A DNA stretch of 26,955 nucleotides, taken from IMG/VR virus record IMGVR_UViG_3300035698_031524, positions 1-26,955 of that record, one strand, 5' to 3'. A program made the position numbers and the translations under genes. Of the stretch, positions 2,411 to 24,685 are shown one piece after another. The stretch's first letter is position 1. Each line of letters starts with the position of its first letter. Origin of the DNA: a virus. Under the pieces are notes generated by a model. The model searched no databases. It was not told the DNA's origin and saw only the letters and a program-made list of their open reading frames with translations.

Positions 2411-3833
2411 CATCTACTTTATGTCCTTCTTTTTTCAACGTTTTAATTCTTTTGTTAGAATGATCCTCTAAATACTCATTGGTTTTATACACAAAATCAA
2501 AATATTTCAGCATTTCTTTATCATTAGCTGGTCTTAATCCACGACCAAATCTTTGCACTATTGTATGATCCGCTTTTCCACCGGCTGCATTTATTAAATT
2601 GTGAATAAAAAAGTTAATACCAGCATTTAAAATTTGATGTGTTGCGATTGCAGTCACATCCTCTTTCGAATGCCTAAGTTGTTCTAAAACTTCGTTTCTG
2701 ACCTCTAAACTGTCTTCCCCTCTTATCCATAAAGAATTAGGAAGTATGCTTTTTAAATAATCTCCATGAGATATCCTTTCAACAAGGATAAGCGATCTCC
2801 CACGAAGTTTTTCAGTTACCAGTCTTTTAATTACATTATGAAAATAAATGTTTTCAGATATTCCGTTTTGAACTGCATCTTGATACATGTCAAGCTCTAT
2901 ATTTTCAGGTTGGACTATTGGATAAAAAACACAATCTGCATAGGACAACTGACCTCTTTCTTGAAGTTTTTTAGTTGACAATACTCCATTTTCAGCAGCC
3001 GTAGACTTTATTTTAAATACTGGACCAAAATAGCCTTTGACACTATATTTTTGACATTGGTCTTTTCCCCCAAATTTAAAAGGAGTAGCACTCACTCCAA
3101 TTCTGACATCACAATTTACAAGTTTGTTATAGAACTTTTTAGAAACTTTAGTCATCATCAAATGCACTTCGTCTACAATAATTGCTTTGATGTGTGGCAA
3201 CAGGCTTTCTATTTTGTGTAGAGATTGAACAGTAGCACATGTGATAATATTAGGTTCTTTGTATTTGTCATACAATCTGCCTACGTTTTCAAATTTCCAT
3301 TGTACAAGCTCGTTGTAATTTTGTTCAACTAAGCTTTTTTGTCGACATAGAATAAGAGTAGGAGTTTTAGGCGGCAGGCACTTTAAAATAGAAATCATAA
3401 TAGCTGTCTTGCCAGCGGCAGTGGGAGCTTTTACTATCCCCCTTCTATATTTTATTGATTGATTTGTTAAATCAGCTTGATAATCATGTAGAACATATGG
3501 TTTATCACTGTCGTTCCATTGATTTAGAAAATTCTCATCTATTGAATTAAAAGCAAAATTAGTTATAGTTCTTTCATCAACTAATTTATATTTCACTCCT
3601 AAATGTTTCAAGGCCAACTCTACTTCTGGTAGAAGTCCAGTTAGAAACTTACCATTTTTTTTTGTGAAAAAATCAGTAAACCCATCCCAAATTTTCTGTT
3701 TATATAATCTACTATGGAAATAACCTTTTTCACGAAAACGCAGAGCTTTCCAAAGTATATTTCTTGTAGAGTCGCAATTAGTATTCAGCCAAGAATAACA
3801 ATTTTGAACACGTATTGCAGCTTTCTTTTCCAT
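2388..3833 (-). CDS. uvsW: UvsW-like DNA helicase, 481 aa
   Basis: This is a superfamily 2 helicase close in length to T4 UvsW (about 500 aa). After an N-terminal domain of about 110 residues there is LHDYQ (Q-motif-like, 115-119), Walker A APTAAGKT (136-143), DEVH (221-224), SATPF (248-252) and motif VI QRFGRGLR (427-434). UvsW unwinds branched DNA and R-loops and helps T4 switch from origin-dependent to recombination-dependent replication. The gp32, UvsX and UvsY-like genes of this window fit that role. The ATG at 3833 lies inside a 36-bp perfect palindrome and has no Shine-Dalgarno, and an in-frame stop is 12 bases upstream, so this is the earliest ATG start possible. Confidence 0.85.
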   Translation of the reverse strand: MEKKAAIRVQNCYSWLNTNCDSTRNILWKALRFREKGYFHSRLYKQKIWDGFTDFFTKKNGKFLTGLLPEVELALKHLGVKYKLVDERTITNFAFNSIDENFLNQWNDSDKPYVLHDYQADLTNQSIKYRRGIVKAPTAAGKTAIMISILKCLPPKTPTLILCRQKSLVEQNYNELVQWKFENVGRLYDKYKEPNIITCATVQSLHKIESLLPHIKAIIVDEVHLMMTKVSKKFYNKLVNCDVRIGVSATPFKFGGKDQCQKYSVKGYFGPVFKIKSTAAENGVLSTKKLQERGQLSYADCVFYPIVQPENIELDMYQDAVQNGISENIYFHNVIKRLVTEKLRGRSLILVERISHGDYLKSILPNSLWIRGEDSLEVRNEVLEQLRHSKEDVTAIATHQILNAGINFFIHNLINAAGGKADHTIVQRFGRGLRPANDKEMLKYFDFVYKTNEYLEDHSNKRIKTLKKEGHKVDVREELDF

Positions 3834-3860
3834 AAGATATAATTATATCTTATGGAAAAG
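3825..3860. repeat. 36-bp perfect palindrome over the uvsW-like start
   Basis: Each half is 18 bp, with the centre between 3842 and 3843. The outer arms contain ATGGAAAAG on both strands. On the minus strand this is the start of the uvsW-like gene. On the plus strand it opens a seven-codon frame (MEKLYQL then stop) just before the membrane protein gene at 3891. The element could act as a bidirectional promoter or operator for a dimeric regulator, or as an RNA hairpin hiding the start codon. The inverted symmetry is seen directly and the role is inferred. Confidence 0.9.
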
Positions 3861-3890
3861 TTATATCAATTATAAAAGGAGTAATATAAT

Positions 3891-4109
3891 TTGAGATTCA
3901 AATTTAAGCCTAGACTAGAATGGATGTCTTTTTTAGAAACTAGATATCCGTTCTATATTTGTGCATTTGCAACCGTTTTTTTAGCTACAGTCAAAATAGT
4001 TCTAAACGAGTCTATTAGTTGGAATTTTGTATTTGCCCCTGTAGTGGCATTGTCATTAATTGTTTTACTATGGATTTTTACAGTATTTGCAATATTGTTT
4101 AGATTTTAA
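3891..4109 (+). CDS. Small membrane protein, 72 aa
   Basis: The product has a basic N-terminus (MRFKFKPR) and two hydrophobic segments at about residues 20-38 and 46-71, so a two-span membrane protein with both ends inside is likely. The TTG start is chosen because AAGGAG at 3876-3881 lies nine bases upstream. Its 3' end overlaps the convergent kinase gene by 11 bases. A holin-like or membrane-remodelling role is possible from size and topology alone, but nothing specific supports it. Confidence 0.65.
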   Translation: MRFKFKPRLEWMSFLETRYPFYICAFATVFLATVKIVLNESISWNFVFAPVVALSLIVLLWIFTVFAILFRF

Positions 4110-4704
4110 CATTTGGTTGCCATTTTCTTATCATTCTTCTTATTGCGTCTAACGGAACACCATGAGTATTGCCAGAAGTTCCATATTTCTTACTTAACCC
4201 CCCATGAACACCTGCTAACAATCTTGCAAAGTCTTCTAACTCTGCTTTGTGATTATTTTTATCATCTAACATATGGCGATAATCATTCCACCAAGGGGAA
4301 TCAGGCTCTTTTAATATAACTTCGTACCCATTACTTCTAGCTTCTTTTATATAATTTTCAAACTCCCACAATTTGACATTTGTATTGTCTACAATGACTG
4401 GAGTTGTTTTTTCACCAATAGCTTCTTTAAATCTATTAAAGTTCCATTTATGTGCTTGGCTTAATTTGCTAAGATCAAAATTAGATTTATACACTTCTAT
4501 TTCTTTCAAAGTGCATTCGTCATGATTAAGACCTTTTTTTTGTTCTTTTGTAAAGCCCTGTATAAAAAATTTATCTGTTGAAAATATATGTTTGTCAGGA
4601 TCACTACCGCCAAGTTGTTCTAAAACTTTTTTGGCAGTATAAGATTTACCTGAACCGGGGATTCCCCTGCAGATTATGCAAATTTTTTTGTTTTTATTTT
4701 TCAT
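4099..4704 (-). CDS. P-loop kinase related to polynucleotide kinase / N4BP2-like proteins, 201 aa
   Basis: Walker A GIPGSGKS lies at residues 14-21, followed by STD (42-44), which matches the acceptor-side Asp of polynucleotide-kinase-like enzymes, and VDNTN (105-109), the hallmark of the AAA_33 / N4BP2L group. These proteins phosphorylate nucleic acid 5' ends or related small substrates using ATP. There is no phosphatase domain, unlike T4 PseT. It is the last gene of a minus-strand operon, starting directly after the stop of the histidine-phosphatase-fold gene (TAG ATG), so coupling is likely. Substrate is not determined; RNA end repair is one possibility given the cREC-like gene nearby. Confidence 0.7.
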   Translation of the reverse strand: MKNKNKKICIICRGIPGSGKSYTAKKVLEQLGGSDPDKHIFSTDKFFIQGFTKEQKKGLNHDECTLKEIEVYKSNFDLSKLSQAHKWNFNRFKEAIGEKTTPVIVDNTNVKLWEFENYIKEARSNGYEVILKEPDSPWWNDYRHMLDDKNNHKAELEDFARLLAGVHGGLSKKYGTSGNTHGVPLDAIRRMIRKWQPNVKI

Positions 4705-5334
4705 CTAATTTCGATATCCGTATTGTTTAATGTAAACTCTTTTGGGTTCCCATTTTATAAGGTTGTCTTCTATCAGAGTGACGCTACTTGTCTCTATTTT
4801 TGGAGGCAGAAATTCATTTAAAAGATTGTGATTCGCTTCATATTTTTGTTTCAACAATTCTGGTCCGCTGCCTGTTGCCATGTCAATCAACATACGAGCA
4901 GTTTTGGCTTCTGTTATTATAACAGCTTTTTCCACTTTTTTAAGTGAAGAATAAAAGTCTCTGATTCTATCTACAGAATCGTTTATGCTCTCATTTTTGC
5001 AGACGATTTCTGCGTTTGCTTTTTTCCAATTCAAATTAGAAAAAATATCTCTTTTATCTTTGAATTTGTCGCCTTTAATTGGCAATCCAGAACCGTGATG
5101 TTCTCTCAACCTGTCATCTACAAATATTTCTATTTCATTTAAATGTTGTATTATTGAAGCTGTTTGTAACGATCTGGTGTAAGGACTGCTAAATCCTACA
5201 TAATCTTTTAATGAAAAATTTTCTAAAAACCAATTAGAAGTAGCTACCGCTTGTTGAACACCTGTTTTTGATAGTATTTCGTTTGTAGAAGTACTTTGAT
5301 TCGCTTCTGCATTTCTGATTATCAGCAATTTCAT
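4705..5334 (-). CDS. Histidine-phosphatase-fold protein lacking both catalytic histidines, 209 aa
   Basis: The order of motifs is that of the phosphoglycerate-mutase-like superfamily: an N-terminal strand ending RNAE (7-10) where RHGE is expected, SSPYTRSLQTA (49-59) with the conserved Arg54, REHHGSG (77-83), NES (114-116), and AVIITEAKTARML (137-149) where VSHG is expected. The phosphate-accepting His is replaced by Asn8, and the second His by Thr or Glu (141-142). The remaining phosphate-pocket residues are kept. Known enzymes of this family need both histidines, so this copy is probably a phosphate-binding pseudo-enzyme. It lies between a small unknown gene and the P-loop kinase in one operon, with an AAGG Shine-Dalgarno. 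Confidence 0.7.
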   Translation of the reverse strand: MKLLIIRNAEANQSTSTNEILSKTGVQQAVATSNWFLENFSLKDYVGFSSPYTRSLQTASIIQHLNEIEIFVDDRLREHHGSGLPIKGDKFKDKRDIFSNLNWKKANAEIVCKNESINDSVDRIRDFYSSLKKVEKAVIITEAKTARMLIDMATGSGPELLKQKYEANHNLLNEFLPPKIETSSVTLIEDNLIKWEPKRVYIKQYGYRN

Positions 5335-7313: not shown

Positions 7314-7430
7314 GTCGCTATTTTAATTTAACCTATAAAAGAACTTGATTCGCTTCTAGTTAATGTATAAGATAACATCTTAACAATCAACATTAATAAC
7401 TGACAACCTCAACTTTAATCTACTTTAACA
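7314..7430. other. Gene-free left part of the 575-bp interval, with a short inverted repeat
   Basis: This stretch contains no supportable open frame. At 7368-7382 there is a 6-bp inverted repeat, TAAGAT AAC ATCTTA, that could be an operator or part of a promoter for the RNA that follows, or for the minus-strand gene at 7313. Nothing else stands out. Confidence 0.4.
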
Positions 7431-7816
7431 CGCAGAACGCTACTGTAAAGCGATTTTATTAATTAATTGATGAGTTCCAATTAAAATAAAATTTAAAAAA
7501 CTAGCTGGCTTGTGACCCTGAAGCTAAAGACGTTGAATTAACAATACCAACGATAGCTAATTGTCTTTAAGTTGTGCCATTATCGAAACCCTCTCCAAAA
7601 AGCTGACTAATCGTCGGAGTGTGTATTCGGTGACTTTTGTCACGTAATATGCTTTTAATGGTTTTTTAAAGACGCAATAACACTGAACTTATAATAGATT
7701 TTGTACTGATGTTGAGAACCAACATTTTGTACGGTTTAATTCGTCTTAAATTAAGATATTCAATTAATTATATTGAATTTTACTTAAGACCAGCTAAAGA
7801 AAGGGTTTGTTCTGCG
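7431..7816 (+). ncRNA. Candidate large structured RNA (or structured leader) upstream of the DNA polymerase
   Basis: Reading by eye, the plus strand forms nested helices that abut one another. An outer stem pairs CGCAGAAC 7431-7438 with GTTCTGCG 7809-7816. A hairpin pairs CGCT 7438-7441 with AGCG 7449-7452. A 15-bp helix pairs 7453-7469 with 7478-7492, with an AA bulge. An inner closing stem pairs TAGCTG 7502-7507 with CAGCTA 7791-7796. Inside it are hairpins CGTTG/CAACG (7531-7552), CTGAC/GTCGG (7603-7617), GTGAC/GTCAC with a UUUU loop (7630-7643), ATGTTG/CAACAT (7709-7725) and GTCTTAA/TTAAGAC (7743-7790). AAACCCT 7586-7592 can pair with AGGGTTT 7802-7808, crossing the inner stem as a pseudoknot. 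A U-G pair in one hairpin favours the plus strand. No terminator follows, so it may be the leader of the polymerase mRNA. I could not match it to a known family. Confidence 0.6.
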
Positions 7817-7888
7817 CATATTTAATTACGTTTCTAGTCAGGTTTTAATTGCTTGCATTTACCAATTTTCGATTCTACAATTTGATCT

Positions 7889-9177: not shown

Positions 9178-9732
9178 ATGTTTAAAGAATTTCAACCGAC
9201 GAATAGTGAATTTGAGTTGTTAGATAAAGAATTTGGAGATTTGTTGCATTATGCAGGGTGGCAATTATTGAAAAAAAACAATAGCAACAACCACATTAAT
9301 GATGAGGCAGATATAAATCAAGATTTAAATATAGCTTTACTTACAGCAGCAACTTACTACAAAAGACAAGTTTATATTGAAACTTGTCTTAAATTATGTG
9401 AAAAATATGTGGAAGATGAATTCACATATTCTATTTTGGAATCCCTTCAAAATTTGTGGGATAATAAAACAAGGCATGGGGCAAACCGTCAAAAATTCGG
9501 ACCCCAACAAGAAAAACTACTTGATCGTTTGACAAAAAAAGTAGTCCCATGCAGCAATAGACCCTCTAAAAAAGCCCCTCTTTTGTTCGACACCAAGTTT
9601 AAAACTTATTGCAAGGCCATTGTTTGGAATAAGCAAAAGAATTTAGGCAAAAAGATAACAAAAGAGAAATCAATAAGAAATGGCATGGCAAGCTTGTCAG
9701 AATATGAATATTTGGCAGGGACTTCAATATGA
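9178..9732 (+). CDS. Unknown protein, possibly sigma-factor-like, 184 aa
   Basis: I do not recognise this protein with confidence. Two segments resemble sigma-70 region 2: DINQDLNIALLTAATYYKRQ (45-64) recalls the DLxQExxxALxxAxxxY helix, and FDTKFKTYCKAIVWNKQKN (136-154) recalls FDpxFxTYAxxxI. A phage late sigma such as T4 gp55 would fit the TATAAATA boxes in this window, but no direct match to gp55 can be seen. It has a good Shine-Dalgarno (AAGGAGAG), follows the polymerase by 11 bases, and overlaps the Nudix gene by four bases (ATGA), so it belongs to the polymerase operon. Confidence 0.7.
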   Translation: MFKEFQPTNSEFELLDKEFGDLLHYAGWQLLKKNNSNNHINDEADINQDLNIALLTAATYYKRQVYIETCLKLCEKYVEDEFTYSILESLQNLWDNKTRHGANRQKFGPQQEKLLDRLTKKVVPCSNRPSKKAPLLFDTKFKTYCKAIVWNKQKNLGKKITKEKSIRNGMASLSEYEYLAGTSI

Positions 9733-10849: not shown

Positions 10850-12472
10850 ATGCCCGATCTCTCACCAGAAGAACAAAAACAATTAGATTCTTTTATAAAT
10901 TCAAATGATGAAAAACCAGATCAATATGAATGGGGTGAGGATTTTCAAAGGGAACTATTGGGGTTGATGCTTGTAGAGCGTGCTTTTCTTCTTGAATGCG
11001 TGTCTTTAGTAAAGCCTCATTATTTTATCGATGAGGTCCACCAGACGATATCTAAAATATTGTTTGGGCATTTCGATGAGTATAAAGTTCTTCCTACAAA
11101 AATACAGTTGACGGAAGAACTCAGAAACAGAGTTTCAAATCGTGATGATAAAATAAAAGTAAGATATACTACAGAGTTAAATGCAGTATTTGATTTTTAT
11201 GTTCCGGGAGCCGAAACTCGTGATTACTATCGCAATAAAGTATCTAATTTTGCAAAAACACAAGCTATTAAGACTGCTTTTCATGAATGTCTAGAGGAAC
11301 TTAAAAAGTCGCAAGGTCCAGAAACTTGGAGCAAAATTCAAGAATTACTTCGTGCTGCATTAACAGTAGAAGCCAATTATGATATTGGATTGGACTATTT
11401 CAAAGACCCTGCTTCTAGGTATGAAAAAGCTATAGAGGAACAAGTTGAGAAAAAAGACATATTCACTACTGGATTTCCATCAATAGATCATGCTTTGAAA
11501 AAGAACGGTCTATTACGGGGCGAGATGGGATCATGGGTGGCGTTATCTGGAGTAGGAAAGTCTCTTGCTTTGGTGACTGCTTCTTTTGCAAATATCAATC
11601 AAGGCAAAAAAGTTTTATATATTTCTTTAGAAATTTCTCAAGATGCAGTTGCAGAAAGACTAGATGCCCAATTGGCAGACCCTGATCGAACCAAAGGTGT
11701 TACTGTAAACAATTTAATTGAAAAGAAAGACATTGTTATTCAATCTTTAAATAAATATGTTGAAGATATAGATGATAAAACAATGTTTGTCATTAAACAA
11801 TTTCCGGGTGGCACTATGGACGTATCAGCATTTAAAGCGTATTTTTCTCAATTGTGTTTACACGGATTTAGACCAGATTTAGTTATTGTAGATTATATTG
11901 GGGAGATGAAAGATTACCCTAATATGAAAACATATGAATCTAGATATAGAATTACCAGAGATTTAAGAGGGTTTGCCGTCGAAGAACAATTCTGCATCCT
12001 TACAGCCATGCAGCCAAATAGATCGGCTAAAGAACTAATCAAATTAGGCGATGTAATTGATGAAGAACAATTGTCAGATTCTTACGATCAAATTAAGCCT
12101 TTAGATGCAATGTGGTCCATTAATCAAACTCAAGATGAAAAAAACTGCGGTGCAAAAGACGAACCAGACCCAAAAGGACTGGCTAGGGTTTTTATTGCGA
12201 AGCACAGAGAAGGTAAAAGCAAATTTATATTTTATGTGGAGTTTAACTATAACACTTTAAAGATTTCGGAAGTAAGTAAAGCATATTACGAAAAGAAACT
12301 AAAAATGTATAGAGCTTACAAAGACGAAAATATTTCTGATGACATGAATGAAGGCAAGTTGAATTCCATAATTTCTTCAAAAAGTAAAGAAGCTTTTACA
12401 GCCAAGTTTTCCGAGAGTGTGGAAGATGATAATTTAGATGCTATTGATGAACCACCTGCACTTGATGTTTAA
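10850..12472 (+). CDS. DnaB-family replicative DNA helicase (gp41-like), 540 aa
   Basis: An N-terminal DnaB-like helical domain (about 30-110) with FQRELLGLML leads into a RecA-fold motor. Walker A is ALSGVGKS (231-238), the catalytic Glu is in ISLEIS (259-264), Walker B is LVIVDYIGEM (344-353), the sensor Gln is in TAMQPNR (385-391) and the arginine finger region is KHREGK (451-456). It would form a hexamer that moves 5' to 3' on the lagging strand. It is somewhat longer than T4 gp41 (about 475 aa), with an acidic C-terminal tail of about 60 residues that could bind partners. The Shine-Dalgarno is AGGAAAAG. No primase domain is fused and none is seen nearby. Confidence 0.88.
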   Translation: MPDLSPEEQKQLDSFINSNDEKPDQYEWGEDFQRELLGLMLVERAFLLECVSLVKPHYFIDEVHQTISKILFGHFDEYKVLPTKIQLTEELRNRVSNRDDKIKVRYTTELNAVFDFYVPGAETRDYYRNKVSNFAKTQAIKTAFHECLEELKKSQGPETWSKIQELLRAALTVEANYDIGLDYFKDPASRYEKAIEEQVEKKDIFTTGFPSIDHALKKNGLLRGEMGSWVALSGVGKSLALVTASFANINQGKKVLYISLEISQDAVAERLDAQLADPDRTKGVTVNNLIEKKDIVIQSLNKYVEDIDDKTMFVIKQFPGGTMDVSAFKAYFSQLCLHGFRPDLVIVDYIGEMKDYPNMKTYESRYRITRDLRGFAVEEQFCILTAMQPNRSAKELIKLGDVIDEEQLSDSYDQIKPLDAMWSINQTQDEKNCGAKDEPDPKGLARVFIAKHREGKSKFIFYVEFNYNTLKISEVSKAYYEKKLKMYRAYKDENISDDMNEGKLNSIISSKSKEAFTAKFSESVEDDNLDAIDEPPALDV

Positions 12473-15156: not shown

Positions 15157-16134
15157 ATGGCTAAGTATGGATTGAATTTAAGTTCGAATTCGCTTCAAGA
15201 AGAATATAATCAGGTGCAAACCAAAGAAGGTGGTGGATCAGAGTTTTTAGATAATTTTGTAAAGATGCCTGATGGTAATGGACACATTACTTTTCGTTTC
15301 CTACCACCTGCTCCCAAAGGTATGTTTGAACACGAAGATTTATTCGTTCAGAGTACTAGACTGCATATGCTTAAAAATCGCACCTATCATTGCCCAAAAG
15401 TAAAAGAAGGCAGAAAATGGGTTGGGGATTGCCCAATATGTAATTATTACAACTGGCTTTGGAAAGAATCTGAAAATAAGTCTACAGACAATGAAGCGAA
15501 AGTGCTTCAAGCACAAGCACGATCAATCAAGCCTATCCCAAGATACTATTACAATGTAATGGTTCGCCAAGTAGTAACTGAGGATGGTATTGAGAAAAAC
15601 GTTGGCCCTAAGATTTATTCTTGCGGCAAGACTGTTCATGCCATGATTCTGCGTGCAATTTACGGGAACGAAGAATTGGATGAAGCCCCATTGGGCGACA
15701 TTACTTGTCCTGAAACTGGTCGTGATTTCAAAGTTATTAAAACTATGAAACAATCTGGCAATGAATCGTTCCCTTCGTATAATACGTCTAAATTTTTAGA
15801 CCCATCCCCATTGGGAACGCCAGAAGAAGTAGAAAAGTGGATGTCTGAATTGCATGACCTTTCTACTTTGAAACAACTAAAAGATGTTGATGAAATGAGC
15901 AAGGGGTTGAAGATACATTTGGGAATCATTCCTGAAGACAGTGATAATGGTTTTGATCCTTCCGAGTTTCAAAAAGGTAGCGGTAGTGCTGCTGAAAGCA
16001 CAGCAAGCAGCGTTGTAGTTGAAGAAGAAAAAGCACCAGTTTCTGATCCTGATGATAGTGGTGTCGTCGAAGAAGAAACAGATGAGCCAGCAATCGAAAG
16101 CGATTTCATGGAAAAACTTAAAGGTTTGGAATAA
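15157..16134 (+). CDS. Single-stranded DNA-binding protein, T4 gp32-like, 325 aa
   Basis: A glycine-containing N-terminal arm leads to an OB-fold core with a zinc site: His70 or His78 and Cys79, then CPIC (Cys92, Cys95). This corresponds to the His-Cys-Cys-Cys site of T4 gp32 (301 aa). ITFRFLPP (44-51) is typical of the core. The C-terminus from about 285 is strongly acidic (VVEEEK, VVEEETDEPAIESDF), the tail that in gp32 recruits replication and recombination partners. It coats single-stranded DNA during replication and recombination. A strong Shine-Dalgarno (AAAGGAG) precedes the ATG, and an intrinsic terminator follows. The 100-base leader (15055-15156) holds a weak TAGTAG/CTACTA pairing; T4 gp32 is autoregulated through its leader, so this is worth testing. 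Confidence 0.87.
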   Translation: MAKYGLNLSSNSLQEEYNQVQTKEGGGSEFLDNFVKMPDGNGHITFRFLPPAPKGMFEHEDLFVQSTRLHMLKNRTYHCPKVKEGRKWVGDCPICNYYNWLWKESENKSTDNEAKVLQAQARSIKPIPRYYYNVMVRQVVTEDGIEKNVGPKIYSCGKTVHAMILRAIYGNEELDEAPLGDITCPETGRDFKVIKTMKQSGNESFPSYNTSKFLDPSPLGTPEEVEKWMSELHDLSTLKQLKDVDEMSKGLKIHLGIIPEDSDNGFDPSEFQKGSGSAAESTASSVVVEEEKAPVSDPDDSGVVEEETDEPAIESDFMEKLKGLE

Positions 16135-16193: not shown

Positions 16194-17426
16194 ATGGCAA
16201 AAAGAAAAAAAGTTGTTGAAGAAAATGATTTAGGCTTTTATAAAAAATTAGCAGAAGATACTGGTGGACACGTATTAAAAGGGTTAGGTGATTCAAAATA
16301 TTTTATAGATTCAGGGAATCTTGCTTTAAACTACGTATGTTCTGGCAAATTCATGGGTGGCGGTCTACCTACTGGAATAATAGAAGTGTACGGGCCAGAA
16401 GCTTCTGCTAAGACATTGCTTGCGTTGACCGCCGCAGGGCAATGTCAACGGATGGGGGGATATGTAGTTTTGTTTGACTGTGAACGGGCGTCTAACGAAA
16501 GATTTGCAGTATTGGCAGGTCATGTAAATCCAGATCAATTGATAGTCCAACAGCCTTGTTATATTGAAGAAGTAGAAAAAAAGATCAGAGATATAACAAC
16601 TCTTATTCGTAAAGAAAAGGGAGACGAACCTCCTATTATGTTCATTTGGGATTCTATTGGGGTAACTTGTTGCCATCGTGAATGGCGAGAAATGAATTTG
16701 CCTTCTAATTACACCGCTGCCGATTACAAAAAAATTGTTGGTGGTAAAGAGCAACCGGGAGAAAGAGCTAAGGCAGCAGGCAAATTCTTTAGAATTATCA
16801 ATCCTTTCATATCGGACAATAATGCTAGTTTGTTTATAATCAATCAAATTAGAGAAAAAATTGGCGTTATGTATGGATCGCCAGAAACAACAGCCGGTGG
16901 TGGTAGGGGATTGCCCTACTATGCAAATTGTCGTTTGAGAAGTTCTGCTTCTAAAAAAATAGAAGACAAAAAACGGGATATAAGAATCGGAGTCAAACTT
17001 TCGTTTGCTAATAAAAAATCAAGAAGCTTTATGCCTTTTTTGAAAACAGAAGGTGTTCAAATGTTTTTTGATCGTGGTATCAACCCGTTAGGAGGGCTTC
17101 TGACTATGCTGATAGCAGCAGGCAGGGTTGAAGGGAAGGGAAATTATAAGATCAATGAGCCGTGGGCAGGCGGGCAAGAAATAAAGTTTAAAGCAAATAA
17201 AGAGAACAACATGGTGCCTTTGGAAGTTTTAAAGAGCAATCCCTCTCTTGTAGATGCAGAAACTGCCGAAGAACTAGAAGAATATTTATCTGTTTTCCAA
17301 GATGCTATAGATACTTCTAGTGCAGATTACATAGAAGAATCAGATTTGAATAGCGATGAAGACGAAAAAAATGTAGATGATTACGAGTCTAAAATAGATG
17401 AAATAATAGCCAATGATTCAAAATAA
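16194..17426 (+). CDS. uvsX: UvsX/RecA-type recombinase, 410 aa
   Basis: The RecA fold is clear. Walker A is GPEASAKT (67-74), a conserved DCERAS (95-100) stands in the DAExA position, Walker B ends at Asp153 in FIWDSI, and the DNA-binding loop region includes QIREKIGVMYG (218-228) and ETTAGGGRGLPYYAN (231-245). The usual Gly before the Walker Lys is Ala. T4 UvsX also lacks that Gly, which favours UvsX over cellular RecA. The C-terminal 60 residues are acidic. It forms filaments that perform strand exchange for recombination-dependent replication, working with the gp32-like, UvsY-like and UvsW-like proteins here. GGAG precedes the ATG. Confidence 0.88.
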   Translation: MAKRKKVVEENDLGFYKKLAEDTGGHVLKGLGDSKYFIDSGNLALNYVCSGKFMGGGLPTGIIEVYGPEASAKTLLALTAAGQCQRMGGYVVLFDCERASNERFAVLAGHVNPDQLIVQQPCYIEEVEKKIRDITTLIRKEKGDEPPIMFIWDSIGVTCCHREWREMNLPSNYTAADYKKIVGGKEQPGERAKAAGKFFRIINPFISDNNASLFIINQIREKIGVMYGSPETTAGGGRGLPYYANCRLRSSASKKIEDKKRDIRIGVKLSFANKKSRSFMPFLKTEGVQMFFDRGINPLGGLLTMLIAAGRVEGKGNYKINEPWAGGQEIKFKANKENNMVPLEVLKSNPSLVDAETAEELEEYLSVFQDAIDTSSADYIEESDLNSDEDEKNVDDYESKIDEIIANDSK

Positions 17427-21358: not shown

Positions 21359-24300
21359 TTGCCCCCAATTGTTAAAATAAAAGATCAAAATGAATTAGTT
21401 GATACCAGTTCGTTCCCAAAATACGCACATTTTCCTTTTGAAAAATTCAATCCTGTTCAAAGTCGAATATTTGAAATATATGACAAAGAATGTAGTGTGG
21501 TGATTGCAGCGGCCACTAGCGCTGGGAAAACGGTTTGTAGCGAAATGTTCGCTAGTCATGAAATTAGAGAACGTGGGGGCAAGGCTTTATATTTAGCTCC
21601 ATTAAAAGCACTAGCTAAAGAAAAAATAGATGATTGGACTGATCCTAAACATCACTTCAATGATTTGAATATGTCTATATGTACAGGAGACTATAGGCTA
21701 ACACCAGCCAGAAAAAAAGAATTAGAAGTTTCAGATTTTATCATAATGACATCTGAAATGTTGTTAAGCAGAACTAGAAATTTTAAATCTGAACAAAATG
21801 AATTTTTAAAAGACGTTGGTACTGTCATCGTTGATGAGTCGCATTTGTTGACAGTACCGGGTCGTGGGGATCATCTAGAAGTAGGATTGATGAAATTGAG
21901 CCAAATTTCAAAAAATCTTCGCATCGTCTTTTTATCAGCGACTATGCCTAATGTAGATGAAATAGCGGAATGGATCAGTTATTCGCTAACAGGTAGAGAG
22001 ACTTATTTATTGGAATCAAAATATCGTCCGTGTCCTTTAGGCGTTCATTATGAAACATATTGGCCAGAAAAGAACTACGACGACACTGAAAAAGAAAAAG
22101 TCAATAAGGCTATAGAAATAATAGATGAAAACAAAGAAGATTTGTTTTTAGTTTTCGCTCACACGAAAAGAACAGGCCAATTGATGAAAAAATCTTTAGA
22201 AGAAGATGGATACAAGTGTGAGTTTCACAGTGCGGATGTCACAAAAGAAGATAGACAAAAGATAGAAAAAAAGTTTAAAAATAAAAAATTAGACGTTTTG
22301 GTTGCTACTAGTACCGTTGCTTGGGGATGCTATGCAAAAGGCAGTTTGATGTTTGGTCCTGAAAAAACTTCTTTTGTCGAAGATTTAAAAATTAATGATG
22401 AACTTTTATCTTTGTCAAAAGAGGGGACTATTGAAACGGTAAGAGTTTTAGATAAAAACGAATATGAAACAACTGGATACTATGAAGTAGAATTGAAATC
22501 TGGCGAAAGATGTAAAGTAAGCAAAGATCATGTTTTTTGGGGGGCAATGGCAAGAGAATCGCCTGCTTGGGTTGATGTAAGCAAATTGAAAGTTGGCGAT
22601 TTCATCGGCGTTCCTAAAAATGACGATTTTACTAATCCAAAATTTGTAGAAGATGATTTGTCTTATTTACAAGGTTATTTAGCTGGTGATGGATGTTTGA
22701 CACAGGCTGGAAAATATGCCAACAATGAAAATAAAATATTATTAGACATTGCTTTTGGGAAAGATAATAGACACATTGATTATGTTGAGAATCTTTTTCT
22801 TAAATTGTTTGATTATAAAATAAACACATGTGAAGATGTTAATGACGTTAAACACTTGGTGTCTAAGAAAAAATCAATAGTAGACAACTTTCTGAATATT
22901 ATTCCAATAGGTCGTAAAGGGGAATGGCTAATATCTAGTGCTATTTGCAATGACGAAAAGATGGTGTCGTTTTTGCAAGGTTTATATGATGCAGATGGCT
23001 GGCCTGAAAAATATAAAAATGGTAATTTTTCAGTTGCTTTGGCAACTATTAGTTATAATTTATGTCTACAAATAAAACATTTTTTGTTTCGTTTTGGAAT
23101 AAATTGCTCAATATCAAAAAAGAAAATGAAAGATGTTTGTATCAATGGCAGATGGCAAAAAGCTGTTCGAGATTACATCTATGAATTGAAGATCAGAAAT
23201 AGTCATGCTAAAAACTTTGAAAAACTAATTGGTTTCAGAATGAATTCTAAAAAAGAAATTTTATCTGGTTTTGAAGTTAAGGAAAAAAGTTTTCAAGATA
23301 CTCACGATTTGGTTCCTGTTCGAAAAGCGTTTGAAGAACATGTAAATCAATTAAAAATTAAGCATAAATATTTGGCGAAAACATCTGTTGATAAATGGTA
23401 TTTGTTGAATAAAGGTGAAATCACTAGAAGTAAATTGCAAGAGTTTTTAGATTTATTTCCTGCCGATACAGAGTTAAACAAACTGTGCAATTTGAATGTT
23501 AATTGGAAAAAAATAAAATCAATAAAATTTGTCAATGAAAAATCTTCGTTTGTTGAGATAAAAGTTGATAAAAATGAAAACTACATTGGTAATGGGATAA
23601 TATCTCATAATTGCAATCTACCCGCACGTAGAGTAATTGTTTTAGGAGTCCATAGAGGCATGAATGAAGTGGCCACCTACGACATTTGGCAAATGGTAGG
23701 CCGATCAGGGCGAGTAGGGCTTGATCCTCGTGGAGACGCTTACATACTGCTTCCATACGGTCATGAGGTTAAGCATATGGAGAGGTTAAAAGATCACCAA
23801 CCGATAGAATCTAGATTGTTAGATCATGTGGGGACTTTTAAGAATGCTCATTATAAAACATTGGCTTTTCATCTAGTGAGTGAAATACACCATAAGAGCA
23901 TTCAAACTCTTGACGATATTCACAAATGGTATCAAAAATCTTTAGCACATTTTCAGGCAAAAGATTTAGACGATGAAATAGTTTTGTCAACAATGGAATC
24001 GTTAGAAAAGTGCGGGGCTATTAAAAAAGAAGGTGATATATACAAAGTTACAGCTATAGGCATGGTAGCTAGTATGTTTTACTTTAGCCCGTTTGATGTG
24101 TCTGATTTGAGGAAGAATTTCAAGGCTCTATTTGCAAGTGGTCAGGAAAACAATGATATGATATTGTCTATATGTTTGGGGAATATAGACTCAAATAGAA
24201 TGGGAATAGCTAGTAAAGCTGAAAAAGCAGTTTTTATAAACTATAAATTGAAATTAGAAGGTATGTTTGGAAAAGGCGAATTTACAGATGCCGCATTAAA

Positions 24301-24685
24301 AACTGGTTATGCATATTATTCGTTGATGAACGGGATCAATTCTCCTGTTTTGTTGTCGTATCAAAAAACATTGCAATGGGATGCTCCTAGACTTATTCAA
24401 GTTTTGAATTCTTTAGATCAAATAAATTGTAAATGGGACAGAGAAGAATGGTTTGGGGATTTAGCTTCTAGAATGTCTTATGGCGTAAAATCCCATTTGA
24501 TAAATTTAGTTAGACTGCCAAATATAGGAAAAGTGAGAGCGGAAAGACTATGGGATGCAGGGATAAAAACTCCTAGCGATGTTGCCGAAAATGCTAACAA
24601 AGTTAAATCAGTATTAAATATGAAGGCTGATAAAGTGAAAGAAATATGTGAAATAGCTCAATTGATGAAAGGAACAAATGCTTAA
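21359..24685 (+). CDS. Hel308/Ski2-like DNA helicase interrupted by an intein, 1108 aa precursor
   Basis: Helicase motifs are Walker A ATSAGKT (52-58), TxxE-like TSEML (131-135), DESH (159-162), SATMP (193-197), motif V split by the intein (TSTVAWG up to 323, then CNLPARR from 752) and motif VI QMVGRSGR (778-785). A C-terminal helix-hairpin-helix, LVRLPNIGKVRAERLW, ends the protein. Removing the 428-residue intein leaves 680 residues, the size of Hel308 enzymes, which unwind stalled forks 3' to 5'. This family is best known from archaea and eukaryotes and is not part of T4. The TTG start is chosen for GAGAGG seven bases upstream. It overlaps the next gene by eight bases. Confidence 0.87.
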   Translation: MPPIVKIKDQNELVDTSSFPKYAHFPFEKFNPVQSRIFEIYDKECSVVIAAATSAGKTVCSEMFASHEIRERGGKALYLAPLKALAKEKIDDWTDPKHHFNDLNMSICTGDYRLTPARKKELEVSDFIIMTSEMLLSRTRNFKSEQNEFLKDVGTVIVDESHLLTVPGRGDHLEVGLMKLSQISKNLRIVFLSATMPNVDEIAEWISYSLTGRETYLLESKYRPCPLGVHYETYWPEKNYDDTEKEKVNKAIEIIDENKEDLFLVFAHTKRTGQLMKKSLEEDGYKCEFHSADVTKEDRQKIEKKFKNKKLDVLVATSTVAWGCYAKGSLMFGPEKTSFVEDLKINDELLSLSKEGTIETVRVLDKNEYETTGYYEVELKSGERCKVSKDHVFWGAMARESPAWVDVSKLKVGDFIGVPKNDDFTNPKFVEDDLSYLQGYLAGDGCLTQAGKYANNENKILLDIAFGKDNRHIDYVENLFLKLFDYKINTCEDVNDVKHLVSKKKSIVDNFLNIIPIGRKGEWLISSAICNDEKMVSFLQGLYDADGWPEKYKNGNFSVALATISYNLCLQIKHFLFRFGINCSISKKKMKDVCINGRWQKAVRDYIYELKIRNSHAKNFEKLIGFRMNSKKEILSGFEVKEKSFQDTHDLVPVRKAFEEHVNQLKIKHKYLAKTSVDKWYLLNKGEITRSKLQEFLDLFPADTELNKLCNLNVNWKKIKSIKFVNEKSSFVEIKVDKNENYIGNGIISHNCNLPARRVIVLGVHRGMNEVATYDIWQMVGRSGRVGLDPRGDAYILLPYGHEVKHMERLKDHQPIESRLLDHVGTFKNAHYKTLAFHLVSEIHHKSIQTLDDIHKWYQKSLAHFQAKDLDDEIVLSTMESLEKCGAIKKEGDIYKVTAIGMVASMFYFSPFDVSDLRKNFKALFASGQENNDMILSICLGNIDSNRMGIASKAEKAVFINYKLKLEGMFGKGEFTDAALKTGYAYYSLMNGINSPVLLSYQKTLQWDAPRLIQVLNSLDQINCKWDREEWFGDLASRMSYGVKSHLINLVRLPNIGKVRAERLWDAGIKTPSDVAENANKVKSVLNMKADKVKEICEIAQLMKGTNA
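22328..23611 (+). other. Intein with LAGLIDADG homing endonuclease, 428 aa
   Basis: Residues 324-751 of the helicase precursor form the intein. It begins with the nucleophile Cys324 (CYAKGSLMFG) and has block B SKDHVFWG with its conserved His at intein position 68. Two dodecapeptide LAGLIDADG motifs, LQGYLAGDG (114-122) and LQGLYDADG (216-224), each keep a catalytic Asp. It ends ENYIGNGIISHN with His427-Asn428. The +1 extein residue is Cys752, so all protein-splicing residues are intact. Insertion is inside helicase motif V (AWG / CNLP), a highly conserved site where an unspliced protein would be inactive. The endonuclease would spread the element to intein-free alleles. Both catalytic parts look functional. 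Confidence 0.93.

Follow-up and report, generated by a model that had tools for sequence, protein, structure and literature searches.

A candidate family of large pseudoknotted RNAs encoded in front of the PolA-type DNA polymerase gene in a lineage of large phages

In bacteriophage T4, the gene 43 leader carries a short operator over the ribosome-binding site through which the DNA polymerase is autoregulated. GOLLD and ROOL are large, intricate and pseudoknotted non-coding RNAs of phages and prophages, without known function, which often lie near tRNA islands and form RNA-only cages (PMC12286853). Only a small number of large structured RNAs have been described from bacteria and phages, most of them still without an assigned function, and the locus described here adds a further family that is absent from Rfam. 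The predicted RNA upstream of the polymerase is comparable to GOLLD and ROOL in size class, intricacy and pseudoknotting; it differs in that it matches neither model and in that its place is fixed, in front of a PolA gene and not beside tRNA islands. A search for tRNA genes in the DNA analysed here returned none. As in the T4 gene 43 leader, a structured RNA is found near a phage DNA polymerase gene, but it spans hundreds of nucleotides and precedes a separate predicted promoter with an apparently leaderless start, whereas the T4 element is short and covers the ribosome-binding site. It is best called a new family of the general GOLLD/ROOL kind.

The DNA under study (the window) is a complete IMG/VR virus record of 26,955 bases that carries a replication block comprising a PolA-type polymerase, a DnaB-like helicase, a gp32-like single-strand binding protein and a RecA/UvsX-like recombinase. 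The interval 7314-7888 is its longest gene-free stretch, in agreement with the initial annotation, which had described it as the only long one. The polymerase consists of a PolA domain within 425 residues and lacks a recognised exonuclease domain. Searches of Pfam and PHROGs returned no match for either the divergent 237-aa gene that bounds the gap or the 184-aa gene downstream of the polymerase, and both proteins are conserved through the whole lineage, the 184-aa protein strongly so. The nearest named relative, LR756511.1, is an uncultured 595-kb phage with a polymerase identity of 33.6% and the same gene order, and other relatives carrying the RNA reside on contigs of up to 459 kb, so that the source phage of the window is probably large. 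Elsewhere in the window, a DEAD-box helicase gene (21359-24685) contains an intein with a LAGLIDADG domain (matches to Intein_splicing and LAGLIDADG_3).

Related loci were gathered in IMG/VR through searches with the polymerase and with the 184-aa gene, yielding sets of 15, 47 and 80 loci, many of them overlapping; 80 of the 169 relatives returned by the 184-aa-gene search were taken in. Most polymerase relatives have a gene-free gap of roughly 500-800 nt between a divergent gene of the 237-aa type and the polymerase, and about 30 distinct phage loci encode a structured RNA there, on the polymerase strand. The window has the same layout, with its candidate RNA on the plus strand between the divergent gene and PolA. 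The family extends over dozens of phage contigs, whose GC content varies widely, and includes groups A, C and D, the last of which contains the window (Table 1). From 5' to 3', the elements comprise a promoter, helices P1 and P2, a P3 domain with P3a and P3b, P4, the loop GAGGTGAG, P5 with inner helices, the motif TTAGGA, the 3' strand of P4, variable hairpins and a 3' tail, in many cases terminating in TGCGC, which base-pairs with the loop of P5. The element with this ending recurs at the RNA 3' end in many loci, for example at 7810-7817 in the window, and several relatives have an additional ATGCGC ahead of the promoter of the RNA.

None of the 4227 Rfam families, GOLLD and ROOL included, matched the window or the scanned relative loci at the gathering threshold, and permissive scans gave only unrelated, chance-level matches. 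The suggestion in the initial annotation of a large phage RNA of the ornate kind is supported in that the RNA is large, pseudoknotted, conserved and non-coding; the Rfam scan that it had named as a check shows it to be neither GOLLD nor ROOL nor any other Rfam family. A blastn comparison of the gap with phage records gave no match, and we found no description of this RNA in the open-access literature. Scans of 2.9 million viral contigs with the group A, C and D motifs returned 5, 17 and 6 contigs, respectively, all of them already known as loci of this polymerase, and a pattern scan for further relatives of the two other group D loci (L025 and L100) returned only known loci. Within the sensitivity of exact motifs, the RNA appears restricted to the polymerase locus. 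An intron or mobile RNA inserted at this site (group I or II, or HEARO-like) could account for a long structured RNA of the right size and for the variable content of the locus between sister phages. We regard it as highly improbable, given that Rfam holds no match, that the motifs were never found away from the polymerase locus and that the upstream gene, being on the opposite strand, provides no 5' exon.

Table 1. Features of the window around the predicted RNA, and loci assigned to each RNA group.
Feature	Position	Strand	Details and basis
Divergent conserved gene, 237 aa	6600..7313	-	Bounds the RNA locus; most relatives have a homologue in the corresponding position
Predicted RNA promoter	7345..7373	+	TTGATT-N17-TAAGAT, start point about 7380; family pattern
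Predicted RNA, ~440 nt	7380..7817	+	Both ends predicted, from promoter position, P1 and the recurrent 3' element ending TGCGC
Outer stem P1	7431-7438 / 7809-7816	+	CGCAGAAC / GTTCTGCG; 8 Watson-Crick pairs, probability 0.96-1.0, in minimum-energy fold
P2, bulged hairpin	7452..7493 (7452-7469 with 7478-7493)	+	Fold
P3	7502..7559 (7502-7506 / 7555-7559)	+	Encloses P3a and P3b; likeness to L025 and L100, constrained fold, model R2 alignment
Closing stem	7502-7507 / 7791-7796	+	TAGCTG / CAGCTA; pair probability 0.63-0.78 in minimum-energy fold
P3a	7507-7511 / 7521-7525	+	9-nt loop GTGACCCTG; aligned by model R2
P3b	7531-7535 / 7548-7552	+	Within P3
P4	7563..7568 / 7668..7673	+	GTCTTT / AAAGAC; own-versus-cross test
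P5	7577..7582 / 7656..7661	+	CCATTA / TAATGG; own-versus-cross test
Pseudoknot (crossing pairing)	7586-7592 / 7802-7808	+	AAACCCT / AGGGTTT; best loop-tail pairing in the window
P6	7593..7619 (7593-7596 / 7616-7619)	+	CTCC / GGAG; aligned by model R2
Possible second pseudoknot	7601-7605 / 7791-7795	+	AGCTG / CAGCT; putative, position like group C GCTGAC / GTCAGC
Hairpin inside P5	7621..7652	+	7 + 5 pairs; fold
Predicted polymerase promoter	7853..7881	+	TTGCAT-N17-TACAAT, ATG at about +1; -10-like box 7 nt before ATG
PolA-type DNA polymerase, 425 aa	7889..9166	+	PF00476, 1.4e-14; homologues in relatives
Conserved 184-aa gene	9178..9732	+	Downstream of polymerase; mostly 48-63% identity in relatives
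DnaB-like helicase	10850-12472
gp32-like single-strand binding protein	15157-16134
RecA/UvsX-like recombinase	16194-17426
Group A loci			L012, L014, L015, L018, L043, L045, L049, L050, L061, L062, L147
Group C loci (includes)			L036, L044, L066, L109, L117, L119, L121, L122, L124, L129, L131, L132, L136, L141, L150, L152; close to group C: L059, L065
Group D loci			L025, L100, window
Group B RNA loci			L006, L008, L029, L031, L032, L039, L073, L074, L075, L096, L099

Support for a conserved fold comes from the relatives. Nine distinct group A sequences were aligned with MAFFT over a core of 171-187 nt, in which 89.5% of cells are paired (74.0% in shuffles), both sides have changed in 26 of 40 pairs (14.4 in shuffles) and the covariation score is 0.513 (0.235 in shuffles); none of 500 shuffles reached the observed value for any of the three. 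Sliding the partners by 1-3 columns lowered pairing to 35-48%, a control that is favourable by construction since the structure was derived with RNAalifold from the same alignment. Cells with G.U pairs outnumber those with A.C by 43 to 9 in the relatives, which identifies the plus strand as the structured one. Compensatory changes in homologues, which the initial annotation had named as a check on its RNA, are hence present and favour a structured RNA.

On the group C alignment, in which the helices are misplaced by MAFFT, RNAalifold performed poorly, and this approach gave way to tests on anchor-defined segments, in which the pairing of each strand with its own partner was compared with that obtained upon permuting partners among loci. 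In this diverged set, where the permutation leaves sequence relatedness in and where anchors and strands were placed by eye in several tests, the pseudoknot between loop and 3' tail scored 9.60 with own partners and 7.36 (sd 0.25) with permuted ones over 31 loci (0/50000 permutations), P4 scored 6.43 against 3.91 over 30 loci, and P5 scored 7.98 against 4.26 (0/20000 permutations for each helix). Among the relatives, compensatory changes accompany the conservation of the loop-tail pseudoknot, of the P3 domain and of the P4-P5 module. In the window, the own partner outperforms all 29 foreign strands for P4 and likewise for P5, and the module formed by P4, the internal loop and P5 is recognised there, though the 3' half of the loop (J5/4) reads TTTTTT and not TTAGGA. 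The AAACCCT/AGGGTTT pairing of the window, taken alone, is matched by 17% of foreign tails, which pair equally well with the window loop.

To place the window relative to this family, we used two covariance models, R1 built from group A and R2 built only from L025 and L100. With E-values that are rough owing to shortened calibrations, R1 recovered three held-out loci, L147 (6.8e-17), L012 (2e-11) and L100 (0.003), and gave weaker matches to L088, L141 and others; every match lay upstream of the polymerase, on the strand of the RNA. Applied to the whole contigs of 17 relatives, R1 found only two group A members, as it is too narrow for the remaining ones, and it gave no match on the window. Membership of the window is consequently argued from its nearer relatives through R2. 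The top R2 match in the entire window, searched on both strands with filters off, is a full-length alignment at 7496-7669 on the plus strand (15.3 bits, approximate E 0.027; approximate E 0.00057 on the gap alone) that puts P3a (loop), P5 and P6 where they had previously been assigned. Over 38 loci, the top match of R2 is the group A core of L050 (approximate E 0.05), thereby linking groups D and A. A profile built from the sequences of L025 and L100, with structure left aside, aligned with the window at the collinear place with a p of 25/2000 (about 0.013).

The gap could in principle be AT-rich intergenic DNA that is not homologous to the RNA family and folds by chance, which would agree with the absence of an R1 match, with the weak sequence-profile similarity and with a fold energy that is not exceptional within the contig. 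We consider this improbable, as R2 aligns over its full length exactly in the gap, with no better match on either strand, and the position, promoter spacing and P4/P5 pairing are those of the family. It is very likely, in our assessment, that the window belongs to the family, of which it is a divergent and short member.

All pairings named in the initial annotation are present in the window. The region 7420-7830 folds with an energy of -94.2 kcal/mol (z -4.42), which none of 100 shuffles equalled. Across 138 windows of 387 nt taken from both strands of the contig, the mean z is -1.04 (sd 1.53); seven of the 138 lie at or below the z of -3.9 of the target, and this stretch folds no less well on its minus strand (z -5.9). 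The argument that such a fit of pairings is hard to get by chance is thus weaker than put forward, the fold standing out clearly against shuffled sequence but less so against the rest of the contig, and fold z was dropped as proof of function on account of these comparable windows and the minus strand.

The previously described architecture likewise held in part. P1 and the crossing pairing fit the family design, of which loop-tail pairing is the hallmark; by eye, P1 has a group C counterpart in ACTGAG/CTCGGT, and P2 has counterparts in relatives. The closing stem, for which we found no counterpart in the relatives, competes with the family-like P3 and with the possible second pseudoknot, and is itself doubtful. 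L025 and L100 have the same P3 arrangement built from other stems, with loops GTGGCCCTG and GTAACCCTG. When the pseudoknot strands are kept unpaired, the fold itself adopts P3 and P3a, the helices predicted from these two loci; its energy is -87.0 kcal/mol, which excludes that of the pseudoknot, compared with -94.2 kcal/mol with the closing stem. The segment 7791-7795 has alternative partners in the closing stem and the possible second pseudoknot, the latter of which could form together with AAACCCT/AGGGTTT. P6 corresponds to CCCC/GGGG in L025 and L100 and has a probability of only about 0.13 in the unconstrained fold of the window.

The promoter arrangement suggests that the RNA and the polymerase are transcribed separately. 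Of 33 loci, 22 have the pattern TTGNNN-N17-TANNNT ahead of the RNA core (in shuffles 3.6 on average, sd 1.7, maximum 8), with counts of promoter-like sites highest at spacers of 16-17. In the family, the spacer-17 site precedes the core by about 100-180 nt, and the window has such a site. At the polymerase, TANNNT ends 6 nt (11 loci) or 7 nt (3 loci) before the ATG in 14 of 32 loci, compared with about one locus at most other offsets. A generic promoter scan at a stricter threshold listed neither of the two window sites. From these patterns, the polymerase mRNA is probably leaderless across the lineage, which would explain the missing Shine-Dalgarno sequence that the initial annotation had pointed out and which constitutes a simple, testable prediction. 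Since the polymerase promoter-like site lies downstream of the RNA, the main polymerase mRNA would not contain it, and the RNA is probably a transcription unit of its own. Moreover, the RNA core of L147 ends about 1.2 kb before the polymerase, so that the RNA need not be a leader. An autoregulatory leader, also put forward earlier, is not supported, as the RNA has its own predicted promoter-like site and is followed by another for the polymerase, one whose -10-like box at 6-7 nt from the ATG recurs in 14 of 32 loci.

A broader cis-acting role ranks next after the trans role that we favour, and we regard it as a less likely alternative. The RNA would then make up the 5' portion of an extended polymerase transcript and govern read-through or the expression of the replication genes, perhaps with the closing-stem and pseudoknot folds as the two states of a switch. 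The two rival folds for 7791-7796 have similar energies (-94.2 and, before pseudoknot energy, -87.0), a search of the stretch that follows the RNA and leads up to the polymerase revealed no terminator-like site, and the RNA is co-directional with the polymerase and near it in nearly all loci, a constant adjacency that would also fit a role in cis. The polymerase promoter-like site after the RNA, the leaderless start, the distance in L147 and, in a sister group of loci (group B), a small ORF between RNA and polymerase weigh against it.

Our preferred reading, to which we give somewhat better than even confidence, is that a non-coding RNA with a transcript of its own is encoded in this interval, that it represents a new family of large pseudoknotted phage RNAs in front of PolA and that it most likely acts in trans. 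In this model, a lineage of large phages maintains the RNA family at this place; the window version, of about 440 nt, would fold into P1, P2 and two domains, one of P3 and one of P4-P5, and pairing of the P4-P5 domain loop with the 3' tail would lock the 3' end into the body of the molecule. By analogy with other large phage RNAs, it may function as a stable RNA, or in a particle with protein, produced alongside the replication genes. Conservation, strand, strict position and, in the relatives, covariation are shown here, whereas the use of the promoters, the RNA ends, stability and function are predictions. We prefer a role in trans because the RNA appears to be separately transcribed and because the distance to the polymerase can exceed 1 kb (L147) or contain an ORF (group B); the position and promoter arrangement also fit a stable RNA produced with the replication genes. 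The pseudoknotted architecture and the fixed genomic place suggest what to test.

A replication-origin or primer RNA, whose transcript would prime or organise initiation beside the polymerase gene, appears unlikely. The locus is flanked by divergent genes, GC skew changes sign near it in the window, and in two relatives, of 381 kb and 245 kb, the RNA is found close to the start of an extended block of co-directional genes. In the three long contigs used for a GC-skew origin test, however, skew is confounded by gene direction, tracking coding direction with extremes that do not fall on the RNA, and some sister phages have an ORF in place of the RNA.

The locus has other occupants. Group B comprises eleven loci with an RNA of different appearance, whose sequence shows no discernible likeness to that of groups A, C and D, at the same locus and on the same strand. 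Both sides have changed in 17 of 37 of its pairs, and its loop-tail pairing scores 9.52 with own partners and 7.57 with permuted ones (1/20000), so that a structured RNA is found here as well, possibly a deep relative or a replacement. In several of these loci, the small ORF between RNA and polymerase encodes a basic protein (RRNIRRLAERKGI..EAILKFYK..NKNLVYSLNK). Four other relatives (L003, at 3832-4995, L010, L011 and L037) carry in place of the RNA an ORF of 387-394 aa whose stop overlaps the polymerase start. The encoded protein, which belongs to no recognised family, has conserved NIDIxNSQP and TIHDSILTT motifs of polymerase-like appearance. Its identification as a second PolA-like enzyme was rejected for the 387-aa ORF, as profile comparison gave no support for homology to the neighbouring PolA (probability 4.9%) and a PDB search likewise gave none. 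A tentative and rather unlikely extension of our reading is that the RNA is a working part of the replication apparatus, for example a partner of the exonuclease-less PolA, that is replaced in sister phages by the gene for the 387-394-aa protein. That sister phages have different RNAs, or else a protein-coding gene, at a single locus amounts to a natural replacement experiment. Finally, L022 has a CRISPR-like array (about 2000-2470) directly upstream of the polymerase, where other relatives have the RNA, with several copies of the repeat GGTGTGGAACACCTTGAATTGTAGGTAGACCGCAAC and spacers that differ.
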